Shown: one piece after another, positions 3,248 to 38,434 of the stretch | Numbering within the stretch: the stretch's first letter is position 1 | Layout of the letters: each line of letters starts with the position of its first letter | IMG/VR virus record: IMGVR_UViG_3300036770_008442 | Location: 1 to 64,000 of that record | Reading direction: 5' to 3' (one strand) | DNA from: a virus | Length of the DNA stretch: 64,000 bases | Translations under genes and position numbers: made by a program | The notes under the pieces: model-generated | Databases searched by the model: none | The model's input: the letters and a program-made list of their open reading frames with translations, nothing else | Told to the model about the DNA's origin: nothing

Positions 3248-3781
3248 TTACCTGCTAATTATGTAAGTTTTTTCACGGGATCCGGTTTGAATAGACCATT
3301 CCGGTCCAATGTATGAAAGTAGAATAGATCTCATATTTTCTTCATAGTTATCGATATCCAAATTTGTTTCCATTTCGTCGAAAATTCGGATCACTTTGGG
3401 ATTTTTTTCCAGATAATTGAGGATAGCCTTGGAGATTTGCTCAAAGAATCTTGACAGATCATTGCCCGATAGAGTAAATTTCTCTTCGTTTACCATGGGC
3501 AATTCAGCTTTACCTATAGCAACATCCTGAATGATCTCCGGAGAAATCTGATTCACATTTAAGACAGCATAGGAATTTTTAGGTCCTTCTGTCGTCTCGA
3601 ATTGAGAATACTTACCTATCATAAACATAAATCCCAGACTTTCTCCTTTTTCAAGTTCGAGCTGGAAGAAATAATAGAATAAATCCCCATCTTTTTTTTG
3701 TAGGAAGGGCATAGTCCCAAATCCATCCCCCTCATTTATTCTTCTATTAAAATCAGAAAAACTAAGAACTTTAATTTTCAC
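3248..3781 (-). CDS. Unknown protein with capsid-targeting-like N-terminus (177 aa)
   Basis: Translation appears to start at GTG 3781, because an in-frame stop lies just upstream and no ATG fits. The N-terminus, VLSFSDFNRRINE followed by GDG, resembles T4 capsid-targeting sequences: a hydrophobic-aromatic patch ending in (L/I)-x-E, the T4 prohead-protease site. The remaining about 160 residues form an unrecognised alpha/beta domain. GATATATA lies 19 nt upstream. The protein may be packaged in the prohead and cleaved after Glu17; the body has no known function. Confidence 0.6.
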   Translation of the reverse strand: MKIKVLSFSDFNRRINEGDGFGTMPFLQKKDGDLFYYFFQLELEKGESLGFMFMIGKYSQFETTEGPKNSYAVLNVNQISPEIIQDVAIGKAELPMVNEEKFTLSGNDLSRFFEQISKAILNYLEKNPKVIRIFDEMETNLDIDNYEENMRSILLSYIGPEWSIQTGSREKTYIISR

Positions 3782-3812: not shown

Positions 3813-5771
3813 TCAAACATCCTTTACAAGATCATTATAGAGAATCGCAACTTCAGGGGGAACCATTTTTTTAAACTTAGAAAAATCCCGATCCGTCAAA
3901 GCTTCTCTTACTTTAGTAGCTGATCCAGATCGTGGGGTTTCAATTAATTTCAGGTCCGGACTAATAATATCCTTAATGTCGGATTGCTTGATGTATTCCA
4001 TTTGCTTCTGGTAATCATCTATCCTATCATCTCCTGCTCCTATTAATTGAGGATCATATCCTGAATCGAGAAGTTTAGCAACAGCAGATCCTAAAAGACC
4101 TCTGGATAACATCATAAATCCCTCGATCTGGGGATGATTCTTGGTGATTTCTCCCATATATCTCTCAACCTTGTCAATGGGAAATGGAGATTTACCGGAT
4201 TTATTATGACCTGGATGAACGACTATAATATAGGAATCAAACCCGTTTTTTTCTTTTAGGAAATCAGCCATTTTTAAATGGCCATAATGAAAGGGCTGAA
4301 ATCTACCCAGGATCACATTGATCTTCTTTCTTTCCTCCTCTGTATCTTCTACAATGGAATCAAATTTAGAAGACTGGGAATCAATAGTTTCTAGGTTTCC
4401 AATAAATTCATCATAAGAAAAGAGAGGATTTTCGTTTTTCTCATCTTCCTCGTCTTCCTCCTTGAGATACTCTACTGGCTTAATAAATTCCTTTTTGAAT
4501 TGATCGAAAGAAATGAGAGATGATTCGTTGATTTCCTTTTTTGGCTTCTCCACATATCTTCGAATCTCCTCGACCAAAGAATTGAATTGCTCCTGCATAC
4601 CCTTGTTGATAATGCCTCCAGCTCGGGTTTTAATTTTCCGAAAAGAATTAAGAATAAGTTTGTAAAGGGATTCAAAGGTCTGATCCTTTTCCAGATACTT
4701 CAGAACTCTCCGATCATTAATGAGATCTTTATTCAGCCTGAATTCTTCTTTCTTTAAGTATTCTGGCTCTTCGTAATCAGCATTTTTATACTTATTCTCA
4801 TATCGATCTAAGAATCGAACAAACACATCAGAAATAAAAGAAATGTATCTCTCATCTTCTGTATCCCCATCAATATCGAAAGATCTTACACCCTCCTCCA
4901 AAATAAAATTCATAACATCCATGAGAGTTATGCCCAAAAAATCACTCGGTTTTTTCTGAGCCTTCTCCTGATATTTGGATTTTGCTATTTCGGTAAAGAT
5001 CGGATCCACCATTTTGGCTAACACGGTTTCTCCCTCCTTATCAGGATCACCGAATCTAAAAACAATTCCTTCCACGTCCTTATCTAGATCTTCATTCAAG
5101 GCAGTTTTAGATAATTCCGGGTTGAGAGTGGAAATTATGAATCTGACAAAACTATTGGTTCTAAATTTCTCTACTAGATCTTTAAATGGAGTTTCTAGAA
5201 ATTCCATCAGTTTTATCTTCTGAGTCGAATCTAGAATGCCCTGAAAAATGATGGGGGGTCTTTCCACACCTAATAAATCCGCCCAGGTGTCAAGAAGATC
5301 TTTGTCCTGGATCGTTTTAATTATTTTTCTTGATTCGTCCAATTGATGGACATAAGAAAGGATAAGATGATTTTTAGGAGTTCTGTCGTAGACTATCTCA
5401 ACAGGCTTGTTATTGGCAAAATATTCAAGTCCGAATCTCCACCCTCTGGGAATTTTCTCAATCACATGGGGAGGCAGGGATTCAATATAGTTAATTGGTT
5501 TTTCATAATATCTCATCAAAGTCCGATCGACGAGAGTTATAGGATTTCTTTGATCTCTTCTATAAAATTTAAACCTTCCGCTTTCCCTGTCTCTTTCAAA
5601 CGTGAAAGCGGATCCATCCATTTTCTCATTGATAGTGACGAACTGATTAAAAAGATCATTAATAAAATTTGCACCCTTTTTATTATAGATATCGTAAAGA
5701 TGATTAATTCCAGACATGTTTGAGATAATATGATTAAGATTCCGCGGAGGATTTGATAAAATGTGGGCCAA
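3813..5771 (-). CDS. Fused KxDG nucleic-acid ligase and NMN-adenylyltransferase-like protein (652 aa)
   Basis: Two enzymes are joined. Residues about 45-260 look like an ATP-dependent RNA/DNA ligase: EKMDGS (KxDG, Lys50 as the likely adenylated residue), GWRFGLEYF (motif III-like), DVEGIVFRF (motif IV-like) and VLAKM (motif V-like). Residues 484-652 look like an NMNAT/cytidylyltransferase fold: GRFQPFHYGH (the HxGH site) near 489-498 and SGSATKVRE (the S-x-T-x-x-R site) near 615. The acidic linker between them carries LISFDQF and LFSYDEFIGNLE, which resemble the capsid-targeting motif of neighbouring proteins. The first could seal RNA or DNA nicks; the second would make NAD from NMN and ATP. 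ATG 5771 overlaps the upstream gene by 38 nt; ATG 5717 is an alternative start. Domain calls are by motif; the exact ligase family is not resolved. Confidence 0.75.
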   Translation of the reverse strand: MAHILSNPPRNLNHIISNMSGINHLYDIYNKKGANFINDLFNQFVTINEKMDGSAFTFERDRESGRFKFYRRDQRNPITLVDRTLMRYYEKPINYIESLPPHVIEKIPRGWRFGLEYFANNKPVEIVYDRTPKNHLILSYVHQLDESRKIIKTIQDKDLLDTWADLLGVERPPIIFQGILDSTQKIKLMEFLETPFKDLVEKFRTNSFVRFIISTLNPELSKTALNEDLDKDVEGIVFRFGDPDKEGETVLAKMVDPIFTEIAKSKYQEKAQKKPSDFLGITLMDVMNFILEEGVRSFDIDGDTEDERYISFISDVFVRFLDRYENKYKNADYEEPEYLKKEEFRLNKDLINDRRVLKYLEKDQTFESLYKLILNSFRKIKTRAGGIINKGMQEQFNSLVEEIRRYVEKPKKEINESSLISFDQFKKEFIKPVEYLKEEDEEDEKNENPLFSYDEFIGNLETIDSQSSKFDSIVEDTEEERKKINVILGRFQPFHYGHLKMADFLKEKNGFDSYIIVVHPGHNKSGKSPFPIDKVERYMGEITKNHPQIEGFMMLSRGLLGSAVAKLLDSGYDPQLIGAGDDRIDDYQKQMEYIKQSDIKDIISPDLKLIETPRSGSATKVREALTDRDFSKFKKMVPPEVAILYNDLVKDV

Positions 5772-6159
5772 ATTGAAGATCTAAACTCGATTTTACGATC
5801 CCGTTCATGATCAAATAGGCTATTCCTTGTACAATACTTTCTATCAATATTTTCGATTTATCATCTAGATCCTTTTCATAAATAGTCGAAAGCTCCTCCA
5901 AAAAATCATCAATTTCCAGAGCCATTTCTTTTCTGTTTATGACCTCAAAAATGAAATTTTCTATGGTGTACACAACAGATCCATTGACGATAATATCCCA
6001 GTTTCCTGTTTGGTTTTTTTCGATTATACCATGATTACCAAGTCTAGTACTAAATTCAATCCTATCCAATTCTCTACCTATAATTAAAGGAGAATCGTGC
6101 TCTAGAAAAACATCTAGTGCCCCATACATCAAGTCATTATATTTTGATGTGAATTCCAT
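5734..6159 (-). CDS. Unknown protein (141 aa)
   Basis: No family is recognised. The protein is acidic and mixed alpha/beta, with an N-terminal helical part, a strand-rich centre (GNWDIIVNGSVVYTI) and a helical C-terminal half. Its ATG overlaps the stop of the upstream nucleotidyltransferase by one base (TAATG), and its 3' end overlaps the start of the ligase/NMNAT gene, so the three are probably one operon and could work together. Confidence 0.6.
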   Translation of the reverse strand: MEFTSKYNDLMYGALDVFLEHDSPLIIGRELDRIEFSTRLGNHGIIEKNQTGNWDIIVNGSVVYTIENFIFEVINRKEMALEIDDFLEELSTIYEKDLDDKSKILIESIVQGIAYLIMNGIVKSSLDLQFGPHFIKSSAES

Positions 6160-7076
6160 TATCTTAATTCTGTTGGGATTTCATAATTCCCATTGGTTAA
6201 ATATCTAATGAGATCATCTTTAATAGATTCAAATCGATCCTTATGTATAAAATTAGGGGATTTCACCATTTTCCAGGCTTGCTCAAATGTTTTGACATCG
6301 TCCGGTGAAACTCCTCCTCCAAAAAGAAGATCTAAGAATTCTTCGGGGCTGTCAGTAATAAACTGGTTATGGCCTGCTACCGTCTGGGGGTTTTTAAGTC
6401 TTTTGGTAACGCCCTTAAAAGTTTTTTTATTCTTATAAATTCCATCGCTGAGTCTTAGGGCATAAGAATAATATGTTTCAGGATCCCCGTTGTCATCAAA
6501 GCTCTCGACTTCCTTCAGAGAAGAAAGAATAGCCTGAAAAAGCCAGTTTCTGTGGGCTGATTTGTATTTACTTTCACCAATTCGATAATCGGGTGAGTAA
6601 AAAATAAAACTAGCCCAGTCCATATTAGAAATAGGAATTAGATCCAGTTGAACAGTCTCTGAATTCGTATTTGCTCCTGCAATGGGCCAACCAATAGAGA
6701 TGACATTGATCCCCTTCATTAATTTCATCTCCGGGGTAAATCCCAAAACACCAGGAAGTTCGTCCTCTAGCAGTTTAAAAATGAATTCCAGAACCTGATC
6801 TTCACTAATCCTAAATTTTCTGGAAATGTACCCTTTATCTATACCCAGGTCAATATCACCCGATGTGTCTGTTGGATTCTGTTTTTTCCCAATACTTCCG
6901 ATGATAATATATTCTTCACCCATTTGACCACCCCCGATCAGAGGAAGCAACAAATTTTCGATTGATTTGAGGGTTTCAGGAACCTCAGATTCCATAATCC
7001 TCCTAGATTGTTTAATGGCATTGCCGCCTTCAAACAGAGATTGGAATTTAGAATATGTGAGTATTTTAGAAGTCAT
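6159..7076 (-). CDS. Pol-beta-type nucleotidyltransferase with capsid-targeting-like N-terminus (305 aa)
   Basis: ATG 7076 is chosen over 7097 because it places the N-terminal motif ILTYSKFQSLFE, ending in L-F-E before GG, at the start; this resembles T4 capsid-targeting peptides cut after (L/I)-x-E. The catalytic signature of a nucleotidyltransferase follows: GS at 60-61, DID at 74-76 and a third acid in VQLDLIP (Asp145), giving the GS...DxD...D pattern. Such enzymes transfer a nucleotide to RNA, proteins or small molecules. The target is unknown. If packaged, it could act on the host early, as T4 Alt does. The neighbouring 147-residue gene upstream carries the same kind of N-terminus, and the ORFs overlap. 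Confidence 0.65.
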   Translation of the reverse strand: MTSKILTYSKFQSLFEGGNAIKQSRRIMESEVPETLKSIENLLLPLIGGGQMGEEYIIIGSIGKKQNPTDTSGDIDLGIDKGYISRKFRISEDQVLEFIFKLLEDELPGVLGFTPEMKLMKGINVISIGWPIAGANTNSETVQLDLIPISNMDWASFIFYSPDYRIGESKYKSAHRNWLFQAILSSLKEVESFDDNGDPETYYSYALRLSDGIYKNKKTFKGVTKRLKNPQTVAGHNQFITDSPEEFLDLLFGGGVSPDDVKTFEQAWKMVKSPNFIHKDRFESIKDDLIRYLTNGNYEIPTELR

Positions 7077-7509
7077 CCGTGAAATATTTTCTTGCATCCC
7101 TAGCGTATCTAGAATAAATTATTTCTTCCCTGCTTCTAGGGTTGTTCAGATTAAAATCTTCCCCAAAATAATCTCTGCCTTGAGAAGTATATTTCCGGTA
7201 AAAATCTTCGTAATCTTTTTTCTTATTTTTTCCGCTAATGCGAATTCCCTCTCCCCATTTATCCAGAATTTCGCTCCTGTTTTTTTCTAAATCATCCAGA
7301 CTCATTTTTTCAGCATTTTTATCGCCGAAAAGATTTGAGATTCCCTTAGAAATTTTTTTAATTCCGGAAAAAACCTGTCCCAATAGTCTTTTGGCTGCTC
7401 CACCCTCATCATAAACCATCCGATCTAAAGAACTGATGCCTTTCTCTTCCGTATCCTCCTGATATTTAGACTCTAATAGAAAATGATGAAAATTATGTAA
7501 ATATTTCAT
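7066..7509 (-). CDS. Unknown protein with capsid-targeting-like N-terminus (147 aa)
   Basis: The start, MKYLHNFHHFLLE followed by SKYQED, again shows an aromatic-hydrophobic head ending in L-L-E, matching the T4 prohead-protease site. The body is basic and helical, with a Gly/Lys stretch (GIKKISKGISNLFGDK) and a Tyr-rich C-terminus (SRYARDARKYFTDDF). No family is recognised. GATATATA lies 16 nt upstream. A likely internal, possibly injected, protein by inference. Confidence 0.55.
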   Translation of the reverse strand: MKYLHNFHHFLLESKYQEDTEEKGISSLDRMVYDEGGAAKRLLGQVFSGIKKISKGISNLFGDKNAEKMSLDDLEKNRSEILDKWGEGIRISGKNKKKDYEDFYRKYTSQGRDYFGEDFNLNNPRSREEIIYSRYARDARKYFTDDF

Positions 7510-7542: not shown

Positions 7543-9066
7543 TCAAAGATTAACCCTGAAGATTTTATATCTGAAATTCTCATTCCGATAGATCTGGATC
7601 CTTGCCTCACTGTGCTTCATGAGGTAATTATTGTACTTGGGTGTACTGAAATCGTCCACAAAATCTATGACATTGACCTTATCCTTGCCCTCCATTTTTC
7701 TCATCCCCCGTCCTAAACTCTGCTTGATCAGAACCTCACTTTTATAGGATTCCACTAAGAAAATATTATGTAGATTGTTGATTGAAATCCCGGTGGAGAA
7801 AGTGCCGTAGGTCGCAATAAGAACCTTGTTTTCCCCCGATGACATCCGGGTCTTGTACTCTTCTCTCAGAGATTCGTCTGTGTCCCCATCCACATAGAAG
7901 ACCTCTCGATCCGAACTGAGATCCCTGAGTCTATTCCAGATCTGTTTTCCATATTCGTCCTTTACAGATTGAAAAAGAACCAAAGAATTTTTAGAGGTCT
8001 TTGAAATAAAATCCACTACGTATTTAAGCCTCTTTTCGCTTTCTATGACCAGTTTTCTCTCGATATTATAAATATCATTGCCCTCCATATTGACGGCATT
8101 CAGTTTCAGATCTGCCAGTTTAGCTTTGATCTCTGGATCAAGCCAGTTCATGATGACAACTTTGATCTCGACCGGAGTAGCATGATTGTTTTTAAACAGG
8201 AATTCGGGAGAAATCTCCACCACCAATGGGCCCAAAAATTGTTGGATCGTCAAATAGTCCGCAGATCCTCTTTTGGTCAGGGTTCCGGTTAGACCAAATC
8301 TCCACCCGCAATGCATACAATGAGCAACTATTTTTTTGATGGACATTGAATTAGTGTGGTGAGCTTCATCGACAAAAACCGCATCCACCTCCTCAAAGAA
8401 ATCGGGGTCTTTCTTAACCAAAGACTGGAATGTTCCTATAATTAGATCACACCCCTCTCTCAATTTGCTGCCTCCTCCTATCTGCTGGATTTTAACCCCC
8501 AAGTCTTCAATCCCATAATCAATAAAGTCATCATTTCCTTGAAAGACCAAATTTGTATTTGGAACTATCATAAGAAATTTTCGGATCAGCCCCTGTTGCT
8601 TTAAATAGGCAAAGATCATAAAAGAAATGAGGGTTTTGCCGGATGATGTGGCAATTTCAGAAATGGAATATCGATATTTTATGATCTTCCAAGCTGCCTC
8701 TATTTGATAATCCCGGGGCTTGACATCCTTTCCCTCGAAAAATTGGTCAACCCATGCATTAAAGCTCTCGAGAGTAAGATCAGTGAGAATAAGATCCTCA
8801 ATTCCTTCGATCTCGATCTCCATCTTGTACTCTTTTCCGATCTCTAAAACCTCCCTCCATAGACCGATCGGAATTTTCCAAAATGCTCCTTTTTTTTCAA
8901 TGAAACAGATGCTTCCATCCCAGATTTTTTTCTTAACCAACGGATGGAAATACCAATTATGGATCTTTTTGGTCAGAGAAATATCTATCTGTCTTTTTTC
9001 AACCTCATCTGAGGCACTAGCCAGAATAATCCATTTTCTATCCTCAGAGATGTTGAATTTAAGCAT
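7543..9066 (-). CDS. uvsW: UvsW-like ATP-dependent helicase
   Basis: This 507-residue superfamily-2 helicase is close in length to T4 UvsW (about 500). Visible motifs are RDYQIEAA (118-125), the Walker A ATSSGKT (139-145), VDEAHH (232-237), GLTGT (258-262) and the C-terminal QSLGRGMRK arginine-finger motif. The N-terminal about 110 residues fit the small UvsW substrate-binding domain. UvsW unwinds R-loops and branched DNA and helps switch T4 from origin-dependent to recombination-dependent replication. It lies directly downstream of a UvsY-like gene, as in T4. Confidence 0.88.
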   Translation of the reverse strand: MLKFNISEDRKWIILASASDEVEKRQIDISLTKKIHNWYFHPLVKKKIWDGSICFIEKKGAFWKIPIGLWREVLEIGKEYKMEIEIEGIEDLILTDLTLESFNAWVDQFFEGKDVKPRDYQIEAAWKIIKYRYSISEIATSSGKTLISFMIFAYLKQQGLIRKFLMIVPNTNLVFQGNDDFIDYGIEDLGVKIQQIGGGSKLREGCDLIIGTFQSLVKKDPDFFEEVDAVFVDEAHHTNSMSIKKIVAHCMHCGWRFGLTGTLTKRGSADYLTIQQFLGPLVVEISPEFLFKNNHATPVEIKVVIMNWLDPEIKAKLADLKLNAVNMEGNDIYNIERKLVIESEKRLKYVVDFISKTSKNSLVLFQSVKDEYGKQIWNRLRDLSSDREVFYVDGDTDESLREEYKTRMSSGENKVLIATYGTFSTGISINNLHNIFLVESYKSEVLIKQSLGRGMRKMEGKDKVNVIDFVDDFSTPKYNNYLMKHSEARIQIYRNENFRYKIFRVNL

Positions 9067-22078: not shown

Positions 22079-23767
22079 TTAGTCTCCTCCTGCTCCTCCC
22101 CCAGTTCCTACAATAACAGAGCTCCAATTAATCCATCCACAATCCAAATTAATTCCAGATGTCCCCGAATAGAAACTATATAAATAGTGTCTCCTTAAAA
22201 AATCTTCCCGCGAATTAAAGAAAGTCAGTCTGATCCATCGACATGAAGATTCAACAGTAGCCGAATTACCTCCGGGATCTGTGATTTCGTTGAAATTAAA
22301 TTGCCCACTACCACCTCCTCCTGTCGTTGGAATGGTTCTAATTCCACCAAATGCATAGGTGTTGCTATTCATTATAATATCAACCGTTCTTTCCTTCCCC
22401 TGCGATAAATTCAGCCAAGCGAAGCTTGAGCCAATAGAAATACAAACTCTATTGATCCTATTATTTGTTTTCACAGATCCAATAGTTCCTGTGGGGTTTA
22501 TAAGGATCACATCTTTTGATGGAGAAATAGAAACGAAATTGTTAGTAAATCCGCCATAACTAAAAGTTGAAGAAAAAGAACTATTAACAACTTCAACGGA
22601 TTTAACTAATTTACCCCCTGTAATTCCAACCGATGTACTGCTCACGGTACTATCCCCAGTGCCACCAATTTGCAAAAATCCCCTGTCTTCCAGACTTAAA
22701 GCTTGCAAATAATTACCATCATCAGAAGAGCATCTAAATACTCCGGCTGTTCCCGCTGAAGACTTGATTGCATTGACCTTGATACCATTTAAGGATGTAT
22801 TTAAATAAACGACTTCTGGGGTTTGAGGATCTACAAAACTATTCATTCTCACATATCCAAAAGTTCCAGAAGTTCCGTTTGGTCCAATAGAGGTTGGATT
22901 AGAAATCATCTGGGCTGAATCCAAGACCAGAGAAGAACTTAGGACATTAAAAACCCCGGGTGTTGAAATCGATATATTTCCAGTGGATCCTGCACTAGTG
23001 CCGGAATTAAAAGTTATATTGGCAGCAGAATTAGCGTAAAAATCTGTTCCTGCCTCAATCGTGTGGGTTCCCCCAGTCGATCCAAAAGAAGCAGCAGAAG
23101 AGATAATAGTGCTTTCTGATCCAACATCAAAAATTGTATTATAATTTGTTCCCAGAGGACTTTCAAAGTAAAATCCTGGCAAATTTTCCTGAGGAATAAA
23201 AGTCTTTGCCATTCCTAAAATGGGATTCGAAACTCCCATTGAAGAATCCACGGAAATCAACATTTTAGCAAGATTGGGATTGATGCTTCCAGTAAAACCT
23301 TCTGCATCGGATATAACTAAAGTGGTATCAGCCGGATTAGGAACGGGATCATTGATCACAACAACATTGTTTTCAGTTGATCCACCAGGACCAGAAGCTC
23401 CCGGTAGAACCTTGAAAACACCAGCTGTTAGCAGGCTTTCTCCCGAATCTACCCAAGATCCTGATGTGTATTCAAAAACCTGCTGAGCACCAGTTGGCCC
23501 TATATTGATCCAAATATCTCCATTTTGAGAAACGGACGCTTCGGGTTCATCGGGTTGAAAATACCATTCGGTAGCTCTATTTCCAGTTGCCCCTGGCTGT
23601 CCATCCCGACCCGCCTGACCTATGATACCGGTAGCTCCAATTTCCCCTATCTCGCCCCTCTCTCCAACTGCATGTGAAAGAATGTTATTAAAATTTCTGT
23701 TGGTCTTAGAAATAATAACATTTTTATCATCTCCGGGTAAAATGTAATCGTTATTGTATTTGGACAT
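22079..23767 (-). CDS. Tail fibre with collagen-like stalk (562 aa)
   Basis: The N-terminus has a head motif (ISKTNRNFNNIL) then Gly-X-Y repeats (residues 35-62, GERGEIGEIGATGIIGQAG), followed by a segment with WYFQPDEPE and DIWINIG. A long Gly/Ser/Thr-rich beta shaft follows, with a C-terminal domain of unknown fold. It is a paralogue of the 506-residue protein encoded just upstream. Trimeric collagen-like stalks are common in phage fibres. The C-terminal part probably sets receptor binding. Confidence 0.7.
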   Translation of the reverse strand: MSKYNNDYILPGDDKNVIISKTNRNFNNILSHAVGERGEIGEIGATGIIGQAGRDGQPGATGNRATEWYFQPDEPEASVSQNGDIWINIGPTGAQQVFEYTSGSWVDSGESLLTAGVFKVLPGASGPGGSTENNVVVINDPVPNPADTTLVISDAEGFTGSINPNLAKMLISVDSSMGVSNPILGMAKTFIPQENLPGFYFESPLGTNYNTIFDVGSESTIISSAASFGSTGGTHTIEAGTDFYANSAANITFNSGTSAGSTGNISISTPGVFNVLSSSLVLDSAQMISNPTSIGPNGTSGTFGYVRMNSFVDPQTPEVVYLNTSLNGIKVNAIKSSAGTAGVFRCSSDDGNYLQALSLEDRGFLQIGGTGDSTVSSTSVGITGGKLVKSVEVVNSSFSSTFSYGGFTNNFVSISPSKDVILINPTGTIGSVKTNNRINRVCISIGSSFAWLNLSQGKERTVDIIMNSNTYAFGGIRTIPTTGGGGSGQFNFNEITDPGGNSATVESSCRWIRLTFFNSREDFLRRHYLYSFYSGTSGINLDCGWINWSSVIVGTGGGAGGD

Positions 23768-23777
23768 TTTTTATAGA

Positions 23778-25298
23778 TTAAAGGGATGATATTCTGCCAC
23801 AATCACCTTCACAGGTGGCATAATAGATTGAAAAATCATTGATACCCGATCCCTTAACAAGGATGACATCAACAGAAAGAGCTGCAGTACCAAAAGCTTC
23901 AATTGCTCCGGGACTGCCGACAGAGCTACCAATACTTAGGGCTGTAATTTTCTTGGTTCCATCAACACTGGATATTTTAATACAGATTGAGCTGTAATTA
24001 TCCAGATAACTTGTCCAAGATCCATAATTTGTTAGAGCACTCCCATAAGGGAACATAATAATTCTTTGGGAACCGGCTGCAGGGGTCAATTCAGTCAATA
24101 GGATATTTCCATTATTTAAAATATCATATCCGATTCTCCATACGTTATCTGTTCCTCCACCTCCTCCGTCACTAGTCCAAGCGTTTGCAGCCGTACCCAC
24201 GAAAGAGGTAAATCCATTAACCATTTGGACGACTTCCGTTCTTCCGTCCGCCCGAGCTCCGAATATTCTACTGCCTGAGGATTGAAAATCAGCTATATAA
24301 TAACTGCTCGAGTTGGATGTCGTATTTACTCTTAATCCTCCACCTCCCACTCCAGAAACAGGAGTGTAATTATTGTAGATATTGAGAGCAAAATTAGAAC
24401 TATTATTGTTTATAGTTAGGGGAACGGATAATTGAAATTTATTACTGCTCAGAACCGCTTTTGAAGATGTAAGGGTGAAAGCAGCATTTCCGCTTTTAGC
24501 ATTAACAGTAATGGAACTATTCGAGGTGAAAGACATATTTCCCCCTGCGGAAAAACTCATTGTTGAGTTTGAATAAAAACTTAGTGTTGATGATGTGCTT
24601 CTGATTAAAAGGTTTCCGCCAGATCTGATAGTTAATGTGTCCTGAGGAACCGTAAAGAGGAGGTTATAATTTGTTGAAGAAGGATTTAACCATCTAAATT
24701 GGGGATGTCTATTATAATCAATTGGAGATCCAACATTTAAGGCATTGGTTTTAGAAAATTCCAAAATCGGGTAGTCGCTAACAGAATTTGTTGAGATCAA
24801 TACCTTAGCATAGGTTGGATTCACTGTGCTAACGTTAGCTAAAGCATCACTTAAAACTAGGGTATTAATTTGGGGAAAAACAGAACTAAAGACAATAGCA
24901 TTTTTATTACCGACGGGACCTGATATTCCTTCTAAAGATTTAAAGACCTCCTCTGCTTGTAAATTTGAATTTGTGTTCACCCATCCTTCTGGACCGTATT
25001 GATAAATTGTATTTTCATTGAAAACATCCACCCAATAGTCACCAACTAAAATAGGATCATTTACTCCTCCCGTTGGGCCAGTAGCCTGGACAAACCATTT
25101 GGTTCCCCTAGTTCCTTGCTGACCCGGATCGCCCTTCGGGCCAGCAGGTCCAACTGGTCCCTGAGGACCATTCTGGCCCTTTGGACCCTTGGGACCTCCA
25201 CCATTAGAAACTATGGAATCAAAATTAGAATTTACCTTTCTAATTATATCTTCCTGAGAATCACCGGCATTGAGATTTAAGATGTTTAAGCTAGGCAT
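23778..25298 (-). CDS. Tail fibre with collagen-like stalk (506 aa)
   Basis: Head motif IIRKVNSNFDSIV, then perfect Gly-X-Y repeats (residues 33-66, GPKGPKGQNGPQGPVG), then TKWFVQATGP and a beta-rich shaft with Ser/Asn runs, ending in a Cys-containing tip (ATCEGDCG). It shares its plan with the 562-residue protein encoded just downstream, so the two arose by duplication and their tips diverged. TATAAATA lies 13 nt upstream of the ATG. Confidence 0.7.
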   Translation of the reverse strand: MPSLNILNLNAGDSQEDIIRKVNSNFDSIVSNGGGPKGPKGQNGPQGPVGPAGPKGDPGQQGTRGTKWFVQATGPTGGVNDPILVGDYWVDVFNENTIYQYGPEGWVNTNSNLQAEEVFKSLEGISGPVGNKNAIVFSSVFPQINTLVLSDALANVSTVNPTYAKVLISTNSVSDYPILEFSKTNALNVGSPIDYNRHPQFRWLNPSSTNYNLLFTVPQDTLTIRSGGNLLIRSTSSTLSFYSNSTMSFSAGGNMSFTSNSSITVNAKSGNAAFTLTSSKAVLSSNKFQLSVPLTINNNSSNFALNIYNNYTPVSGVGGGGLRVNTTSNSSSYYIADFQSSGSRIFGARADGRTEVVQMVNGFTSFVGTAANAWTSDGGGGGTDNVWRIGYDILNNGNILLTELTPAAGSQRIIMFPYGSALTNYGSWTSYLDNYSSICIKISSVDGTKKITALSIGSSVGSPGAIEAFGTAALSVDVILVKGSGINDFSIYYATCEGDCGRISSL

Positions 25299-37774: not shown

Positions 37775-38434
37775 ATGTCAGAGAACCAATCAAAAAGAGT
37801 TCCCCGCGGGGAGATGAAATTTTCAATAGTTTTATCAGAAGAACAAAAATCAGCTAAATCTCAAATCCGAAACCACCCCTTTAATTTTCTAACTGGAAAA
37901 ACTGGAAGCGGAAAAACATTGTTGGCTGTACAGATAGCACTGGACTCTTTTTTTAAAAGAGAAGTTGATAAAATAGTCATTACCCGACCAACCGTCTCTA
38001 ATGAAGACAACGGGTTTTTGCCCGGATCATTGGAAGAAAAAATGGAGCCTTGGCTAGTCCCCATTCGATCTAATATGAGAAAGGTTTTCGACAATCCGGA
38101 AATTTTGGATCGGATGGAAAAAGAGGAATGTATAGAACTCGTGTCTTTAACTCATTTCAGGGGTCGGACTTTTGATAATTCTGTTGTTATAGTTGACGAA
38201 TTCCAAAATTTAACTAAACAGCAGCTCGGGATGGTGCTTGGAAGACTTGGAAAAAATTCTAGGATGATCCTATGTGGAGACGGACAGCAGATAGATCTTA
38301 AATTTGCAAACGATTCAGCAATTCACGACATCCCCAAGCTCAAAGAATCTAAATATGTCTTTACAATTGGATTAAAAGATAATCACAGACACGAATCTCT
38401 AGATGAGGTGTTGAGGCTGCTATTTTCTTTTTAG
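37775..38434 (+). CDS. PhoH-like ATPase (219 aa)
   Basis: The only plus-strand gene in the window. Walker A GKTGSGKT is at 41-48, a Walker B segment VVIVDEFQNL follows near 138, and CGDGQQIDL is typical of the PhoH family. PhoH proteins are common phage auxiliary genes of uncertain role, linked to phosphate stress or RNA metabolism. Its stop codon overlaps that of the convergent 1328-residue gene (minus TAA and plus TAG share TTAG). No GATATATA element precedes it, so it may be expressed at a different time. Confidence 0.85.
   Translation: MSENQSKRVPRGEMKFSIVLSEEQKSAKSQIRNHPFNFLTGKTGSGKTLLAVQIALDSFFKREVDKIVITRPTVSNEDNGFLPGSLEEKMEPWLVPIRSNMRKVFDNPEILDRMEKEECIELVSLTHFRGRTFDNSVVIVDEFQNLTKQQLGMVLGRLGKNSRMILCGDGQQIDLKFANDSAIHDIPKLKESKYVFTIGLKDNHRHESLDEVLRLLFSF

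Follow-up and report, generated by a model that had tools for sequence, protein, structure and literature searches.

A conserved ligase-NMNAT fusion of large T4-like phages as a candidate enzyme for RNA repair and NAD+ restoration

Why would a phage join a nucleic-acid ligase and an enzyme of NAD+ synthesis in a single polypeptide? This question is raised by a gene in a viral DNA (IMG/VR record IMGVR_UViG_3300036770_008442), whose first 64,000 nucleotides constitute the stretch analysed here (the window). The initial annotation had placed an open reading frame at 3813-5771, with a KxDG motif at Lys50 in its N-terminal part and the signatures HxGH and S-x-T-x-x-R of an NMN adenylyltransferase (NMNAT) in its C-terminal part. 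It had proposed either that the product of one domain feeds the other or that the protein couples NAD metabolism with RNA repair against host defences.

The fusion gene and its relatives

The reading frame exists, on the minus strand (the initial annotation had named no strand), and its start is more likely at 5717: the TTG at 5771 finds no support among the relatives, which begin at the ATG, and this ATG was taken as the start for that reason (Table 1). The protein then begins MSGINHLYDIYNKKG, and the proposed KxDG motif is present as KMDG, its lysine becoming Lys32 once residues are counted from the ATG. Both C-terminal signatures were confirmed (H477-H480 and S599-R604). In an alignment of 22 non-redundant members K32, D34, G35, E98, E216, G217, K235, H477, G479, H480 and R604 are invariant.

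Table 1. Features of the ligase-NMNAT gene and its neighbours (nucleotide positions in the window; residues counted from the ATG at 5717)
Feature	Residues	Position	Strand	Basis or remark
Ligase-NMNAT fusion gene, 634 aa		3813..5717	minus	ATG at 5717; relatives, alignment
RNA-ligase nucleotidyltransferase core	1-248	4974..5717	minus	AF2 model and T4 Rnl2 structure match
Motif I KMDG, predicted adenylated Lys32	32-35	5613..5624	minus	22/22 aligned; 56/57 loci
Helical C-terminal domain of ligase half	249-390	4548..4973	minus	secondary structure of model
Variable linker with two short conserved motifs	391-463	4329..4547	minus	alignment
Linker motif 1, ES(x)nSFxxF, capsid-targeting-like	398-411	4485..4526	minus	alignment
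Linker motif 2, S(Y/F)xxFxxxxET	432-444	4386..4424	minus	alignment; resembles T4 internal-protein targeting peptide
NMNAT-type HIGH nucleotidylyltransferase domain	464-634	3816..4328	minus	AF2 fold and profile search
HxGH	477-480	4278..4289	minus	H477, G479, H480 invariant
S-x-T-x-x-R	599-604	3906..3923	minus	R604 invariant, S599 nearly
Adjacent downstream gene of unknown family, with a targeting-like N-terminus		3248..3781	minus	orthologue alignment
Upstream gene, nucleotidyltransferase-like GS...GDxD...D, targeting-like N-terminus		6159..7097	minus	motif level only; ATG at 7076 more likely
Gene of unknown family lying upstream, with a targeting-like N-terminus		7066..7509	minus	motif in 25/25 aligned
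UvsW-like helicase, conserved syntenic neighbour		7543..9066	minus	

A first search of IMG/VR returned 37 loci. L001-L036 are related to the entire fusion or to a cut-off part of it; in L037 the match is confined to the NMNAT half. A second search, with contigs largely overlapping those of the first, gave 57 distinct loci. EKMDGS is found in 56 of them; 52 also carry the NMNAT signature and four more end at the contig edge before the NMNAT is reached, the 57th locus being the divergent member L101. Conservation of this kind indicates that the ligase and NMNAT signatures are no chance motifs. The fusion, which occurs in a conserved operon across dozens of large phage contigs, is real, is widespread within a single group of large phages and comprises two recognisable, conserved enzyme folds. 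A protein of an uncultured Caudovirales phage (UniProt A0A6J5NWC5, 623 aa) was retrieved as a structure match to the ligase half (36% identity, E 3.9e-37); its annotation, 'cytidyltransferase-like', covers the cytidyltransferase part only. One scan of genome contigs with short, strict patterns returned no cellular relative, and the literature searched, in which subscription journals are thinly represented, yielded no published description of the fusion or naming of DUF6267, a family considered below.

Three observations concern other parts of the window. The contig start (1-800) holds repetitive low-complexity reading frames with EQAHLPxGSTPGGER-like units, two proteins at 22079-25298 have collagen-like G-x-x repeats near their N-termini, and a lone long plus-strand gene amid minus-strand structural genes (37775-38434) carries a P-loop motif and is PhoH-like by eye.

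Folds and predicted activities of the two halves

A full-length AF2 model built on 22 close relatives represented residues 464-634 well and the ligase half poorly. Residues 1-405 refolded alone with 32 more diverse sequences gave a good ligase model (pLDDT 87.5, pTM 0.81), whose 12 top Foldseek matches in the PDB were all RNA or tRNA ligases, headed by T4 Rnl2 (2hvq, E 4.2e-7). By VIA-align, the model matched the Naegleria ligase with Z 11.5 (183 residues, 3.4 A) and T4 Rnl2 with Z 11.4 (195 residues, 3.6 A), and the first row recognised as a DNA ligase, Pmar-Lig, had Z 9.4. The match to RNA ligases spans residues 1-248, and the ranking of the structure matches favours an RNA ligase over a DNA ligase. 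The assignment of the N-terminal half as a ligase was thus borne out by the core fold, present in the AF2 model and in both structure comparisons, and by the motif order I, III, IV, V. Fold and motif order are shared with T4 Rnl2, Naegleria RNA ligase and trypanosome REL1, whereas sequence identity to them is very low (13-15%). The acidic residues of motifs III and IV (E98 and E216, invariant in 22/22) were assigned by motif order alone. Motif V, which has two lysines in T4 Rnl2, here contains a single invariant one (K235, 22 aligned sequences), and this feature, a helical C-terminal domain of its own and the fused NMNAT set the protein apart from the T4 Rnl2 group.

On the sequence level, the Pfam RNA_ligase family matches 22 of 32 N-domain sequences (best E 9.8e-7). 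It also matches the fusion in all 11 records G000-G010 (E 1.2e-6 to 2.6e-4), i.e. the window's own 128 kb fragment (G000) and ten large fusion-bearing records (G001-G010, of which G008-G010 are almost identical). The gathering score was reached by three of these 11 fusions, only with neighbouring stretches included. Because the window protein stays below it (19.2 to 20.7 versus 27 bits), the domain is called Rnl2-like and was not filed as Rnl2. Searched with HMMER, profiles of this domain retrieved no ligase from the PDB by sequence, so that its identity rests on structure, motifs and Pfam. The Rnl2-like half is predicted to self-adenylate on Lys32 and would rejoin RNA that is nicked or broken, for example tRNA cleaved by toxins of the host. 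Since most of these phages (13 of the 14 relatives G001-G014) carry another, clearer RNA ligase, the fusion's ligase would not be needed for general sealing.

The proposal that one domain feeds the other implies that the ligase uses NAD+ and releases NMN, which the NMNAT would turn back into NAD+ with ATP. The pairing itself, seen in two settings, is the sole point that speaks for such a cycle. In LigA an NAD+-specific domain sits before motif I. The present model begins at the ligase core and has no such additional N-terminal domain, so that NAD+ as adenylate donor finds no support; moreover, the RNA ligases that match best structurally use ATP. Chemical coupling is therefore very improbable, and the fusion would rather co-deliver two separate repair activities.

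Two clades of huge phages keep the ligase-like domain without its motif I lysine. In L101 (the same protein as L039, LR756500) NLDG replaces KMDG and the NMNAT is kept. In the clade of L104-L115, L040 and L041, EDIQG-like letters (EEVQA in L109) stand at the place of motif I, and no NMNAT is present where the reading frame is complete (L115 is cut). Where the fusion has linker motif 1, the lysine-less proteins retain an aromatic-x-x-aromatic motif at their ends. Each of the four long records from these clades (G011-G014) contains a PF04095 match, an NAD synthetase and a separate CTP_transf_like gene; the PF04095 genes examined resemble the shorter nicotinate type by eye, and the pseudo-ligase of G013 and G014 is separated by about 1 to 3 kb from both the PF04095 gene and the NAD synthetase. 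For the lysine-less domain a non-catalytic role is possible. That the ligase half in general is mainly a non-catalytic or regulatory module, such as a platform binding RNA or the head with catalysis optional, would agree with the survival of these domains and of the motif resembling linker motif 1. It is quite unlikely, and against it stands the window's clade, in which neither the lysine nor any of the other motifs varies; a catalytic ligase is the reading retained here.

For the C-terminal half, fold comparison gave NadD (Z 14.3), PPAT (Z 13.7) and archaeal NMNAT (Z 13.1); the fold alone cannot name the substrate, because NMNAT and PPAT share it. In a PDB profile search the 12 lowest E-values all belong to NMNAT-type chains, archaeal enzymes first (1f9a, E 1.3e-7), a match resting mainly on the GRFQPFHxGH region. 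The equivalog and subfamily cut-offs for NMNAT in NCBIfam were missed (best model 23-27 bits for the window protein and 36 bits for L010, versus 127), and the label NMNAT-type was chosen for that reason. The initial identification as NMNAT thus holds with respect to fold, signatures and closest profile matches, the archaeal NMNATs, but is weakened by the missed equivalog cut-offs and the fold shared with PPAT. With archaeal NMNAT (MJ0541, 1f9a) and the bacterial or phage NMNAT-Nudix and NadR proteins the domain shares the GRFQPFHxGH and SxTxxR signatures, the fold and the best profile match. It differs from NMNAT-Nudix and NadR in that its partner is a ligase instead of a Nudix or kinase domain and that the use of NMN is predicted.

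A HIGH-family nucleotidylyltransferase acting on another substrate is an unlikely alternative. Public records name the family, present in 515 of 50,697 phage records, 'cytidyltransferase', its fold also suits PPAT and further HIGH enzymes, and the NMNAT cut-offs were missed. The uniformly NMNAT-type chains among the lowest profile E-values and the presence of a NAMPT-type gene in most large relatives argue against it. As an NMNAT, the C-terminal half would make NAD+ from ATP and NMN, with the NMN coming either from the host or from the NAMPT that the phage itself encodes. On the evidence of the structure models, the RNA-ligase fold and the NMNAT-type fold are both settled.

Operon and NAD genes

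The gene order is conserved across L001-L036 and runs from a gp32-like gene through a primase-like gene, UvsW, genes 7066..7509 and 6159..7097 and the ligase-NMNAT to gene 3248..3781 and several small genes. Exceptions are L019, in which neither gene 7066..7509 nor gene 6159..7097 is matched, L024 (no 6159..7097), L030 (no 7066..7509) and contigs that end early. In L019 the ligase-NMNAT carries the counterpart of gene 3248..3781 as a C-terminal extension. PADLOC returned no match for five operon proteins. Gene 6159..7097 has no Pfam match and no link by profile to the S-CREM2 nucleotidyltransferase.

A tie to NAD metabolism was corroborated by genome context. A NAMPT-type gene (PF04095) occurs in seven of the ten records G001-G010, three of the seven being near-duplicates, and NAD synthetase (NadE) in none of the ten; no PF04095 gene was found in G003, G005 or G007, nor in the G000 fragment. 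The fusion is the sole Pfam CTP_transf_like match in G001, G002 and G006. Three NAMPT-type genes tested had as their best NCBIfam model PRK09198, nicotinate phosphoribosyltransferase (two above its cut-off), and their phage relatives are mostly annotated as nicotinamide phosphoribosyltransferase. The frequency of NAMPT-type genes is suggestive and not decisive, because NadV has already been reported in 33% of jumbo phages in the accessible part of one survey (PMC9503650). In G006 (L121) a PRPP-synthetase-like gene directly adjoins the NAMPT-type gene, which could mean a NARP1-like pair. The arrangement resembles NARP2 and NadV-NMNAT phage NAD+ salvage in that a NAMPT-type gene is found in the same genomes (7/10 large fusion records); it differs in the fusion of the NMNAT to a ligase.

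KptA, which removes RNA 2'-phosphates in an NAD+-dependent manner, was considered as a link between the halves and not found: none of the 11 records G000-G010 had a KptA match above its cut-off. The proposed coupling of NAD metabolism with RNA repair against host defences stands as far as the identity of the two domains and the NAD-related genome context are concerned, but not in the form of a KptA link. The reading of the fusion as a counter-defence enzyme of large T4-like phages with two functions, which would repair RNA and restore NAD+ and might be packaged and injected, has about an even chance of being correct.

Linker motifs, DUF6267 pairs and possible packaging

The linker between the halves is mostly modelled with pLDDT below 50 (residues 391-463 of the full-length model) and is variable in sequence, apart from its two motifs. 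In the first, E398, S399, S403, F404 and F407 are invariant in 22/22 sequences. T4 internal proteins IPII and IPIII begin with MKTYQEFIAEA and share a short aromatic-x-x-aromatic...E motif with the linker. Their motif is N-terminal, whereas the window protein lacks a targeting peptide at its N-terminus and carries its motifs in the linker only. Enrichment of such motifs in the window's own contig appears weak: 6 of 119 genes carry one, against 2.6 expected in shuffles (shuffle fraction 0.034). Three of 15 operon families have a targeting-like N-terminus in at least 80% of aligned orthologues (genes 7066..7509, 6159..7097 and 3248..3781). Such a motif was conserved in at least 80% of orthologues in four of 93 internal 30-residue stretches, one of which is the ligase-NMNAT linker before the NMNAT.

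A related pairing exists in marine T4-like phages. The NMNAT half of the fusion is homologous to the cyanophage 'cytidyltransferase' (hhalign probability 98.6%, E 5e-16). In S-H9-2 the gene for the latter is directly preceded and overlapped by one encoding DUF6267 (E 1.8e-83) with the sequence STKWDGAP. DUF6267, to which 373 of the 50,697 phage records have a match, has invariant K49, D51, G52, E375, G376, V378 and K388 in 65 aligned sequences, which look like ligase motifs I, IV and V. Homology of DUF6267 to the fusion's ligase domain is not claimed, since hhalign was not significant (P 0.0057 and 0.025) and no DUF6267 member matched Pfam RNA_ligase. Among the best 80 of 586 DUF6267 loci in IMG/VR, an NMNAT signature follows downstream on the same strand in 56 (within 471 bp in 50), and the two form a single continuous reading frame in six; none was found in the other 24, eight of which have less than 700 bp of sequence left. 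In-frame DUF6267-NMNAT fusions were seen in the marine phage contigs L167, L171, L178, L181, L188 and L227, and in S-PM2 (L146) DUF6267 is split over two annotated genes, with its C-terminal part fused to the NMNAT. No cytidyltransferase is annotated beside DUF6267 in S-SSM7 and ACG-2014f, that of ACG-2014f lying elsewhere in the genome. The cyanophage cytidyltransferase (T4-GC 190) and DUF6267 (T4-GC 71) are thus comparable to the fusion in that a homologous NMNAT domain is paired, and sometimes fused, with a KxDG/EGxV/KxV protein, but homology between T4-GC 71 and the fusion's ligase domain could not be shown.

Many of the stand-alone NMNATs and DUF6267 proteins begin like T4 IPII and IPIII, e.g. 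MKFTNFIAEARTVAGE and MQSFKQYLSEARNTHLEH. A strict targeting pattern was found in 15 of 42 NMNAT and 14 of 69 DUF6267 reading frames, compared with 18 of 389 other reading frames of the same loci. De-duplication of the reading frames considered just the first 40 residues of each, and the loci are phylogenetically non-independent. The corresponding Fisher P values of 1.6e-8 (NMNAT) and 4.6e-5 (DUF6267) are optimistic, because the patterns were composed after some sequences had been viewed and divergent DUF6267 reading frames were moved out of the 'other' class after an earlier count.

The distant stand-alone NMNAT relative gp154 of cyanophage S-CREM2 starts with MKNFSSFLTEADEK. According to the available portion of the S-CREM2 report, three unique peptides of gp154 were detected in virions, where its neighbours gp155 and gp156 were likewise found, and the authors warn that such detection may be carry-over (PMC10665884). 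Gp156 belongs to a nucleotidyltransferase family by Pfam (E 3.4e-4). A NARP2 protein was likewise detected in virions of a Schizotequatrovirus, as stated in the accessible section of that study (PMC12028318). A prohead protease of the T4 (gp21) type is encoded in 11/11 records G000-G010 (78281-80305 in G000). Outside the window and near head genes, L044:629-1420 (record position 83128-83919) shows a weak NTP_transf_2 match (E 6.6e-4) and a targeting-like N-terminus, IKSFSSYFLNES.

It is conceivable that a linker motif directs the whole protein, or no more than its NMNAT part, into the head for injection, a possibility rated somewhat below an even chance. Only slightly short of even is the prospect that the protein acts early in the cytoplasm, as a housekeeping or counter-defence enzyme that is produced once infection has begun and does not enter the head, its linker motifs being common docking motifs or fortuitous. 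The position of the gene among replication genes (gp32-like, primase-like, UvsW) and away from head genes would fit such an enzyme, as would the missing N-terminal targeting peptide and the weak motif statistics of the contig. It accounts less well for the invariance of the motif residues amid an otherwise variable linker and for the T4-type targeting peptides of stand-alone relatives, one of which was found in virions in the portion of the S-CREM2 report noted above (PMC10665884). In the most far-reaching version of packaging, ligase and NMNAT, either fused or as DUF6267 and 'cytidyltransferase', would form a virion-borne kit that is packed into the head by the targeting motif, severed by the prohead protease within the linker and injected with the DNA, re-sealing RNA and restoring NAD+ before phage expression; this version is doubtful and draws its support from the relatives rather than from the window protein itself.

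Packaging of this kind would offer a possible reason why 'cytidyltransferases' occur in cyanophage virions, as described in the available part of the report (PMC10665884), and the fusion suggests a specific hypothesis about the uncharacterised DUF6267 family. Bacterial immunity against phages commonly ends in the cleavage of RNA or the depletion of NAD+. One conserved protein predicted to undo both makes the idea of a multi-purpose, perhaps pre-loaded, repair activity testable.
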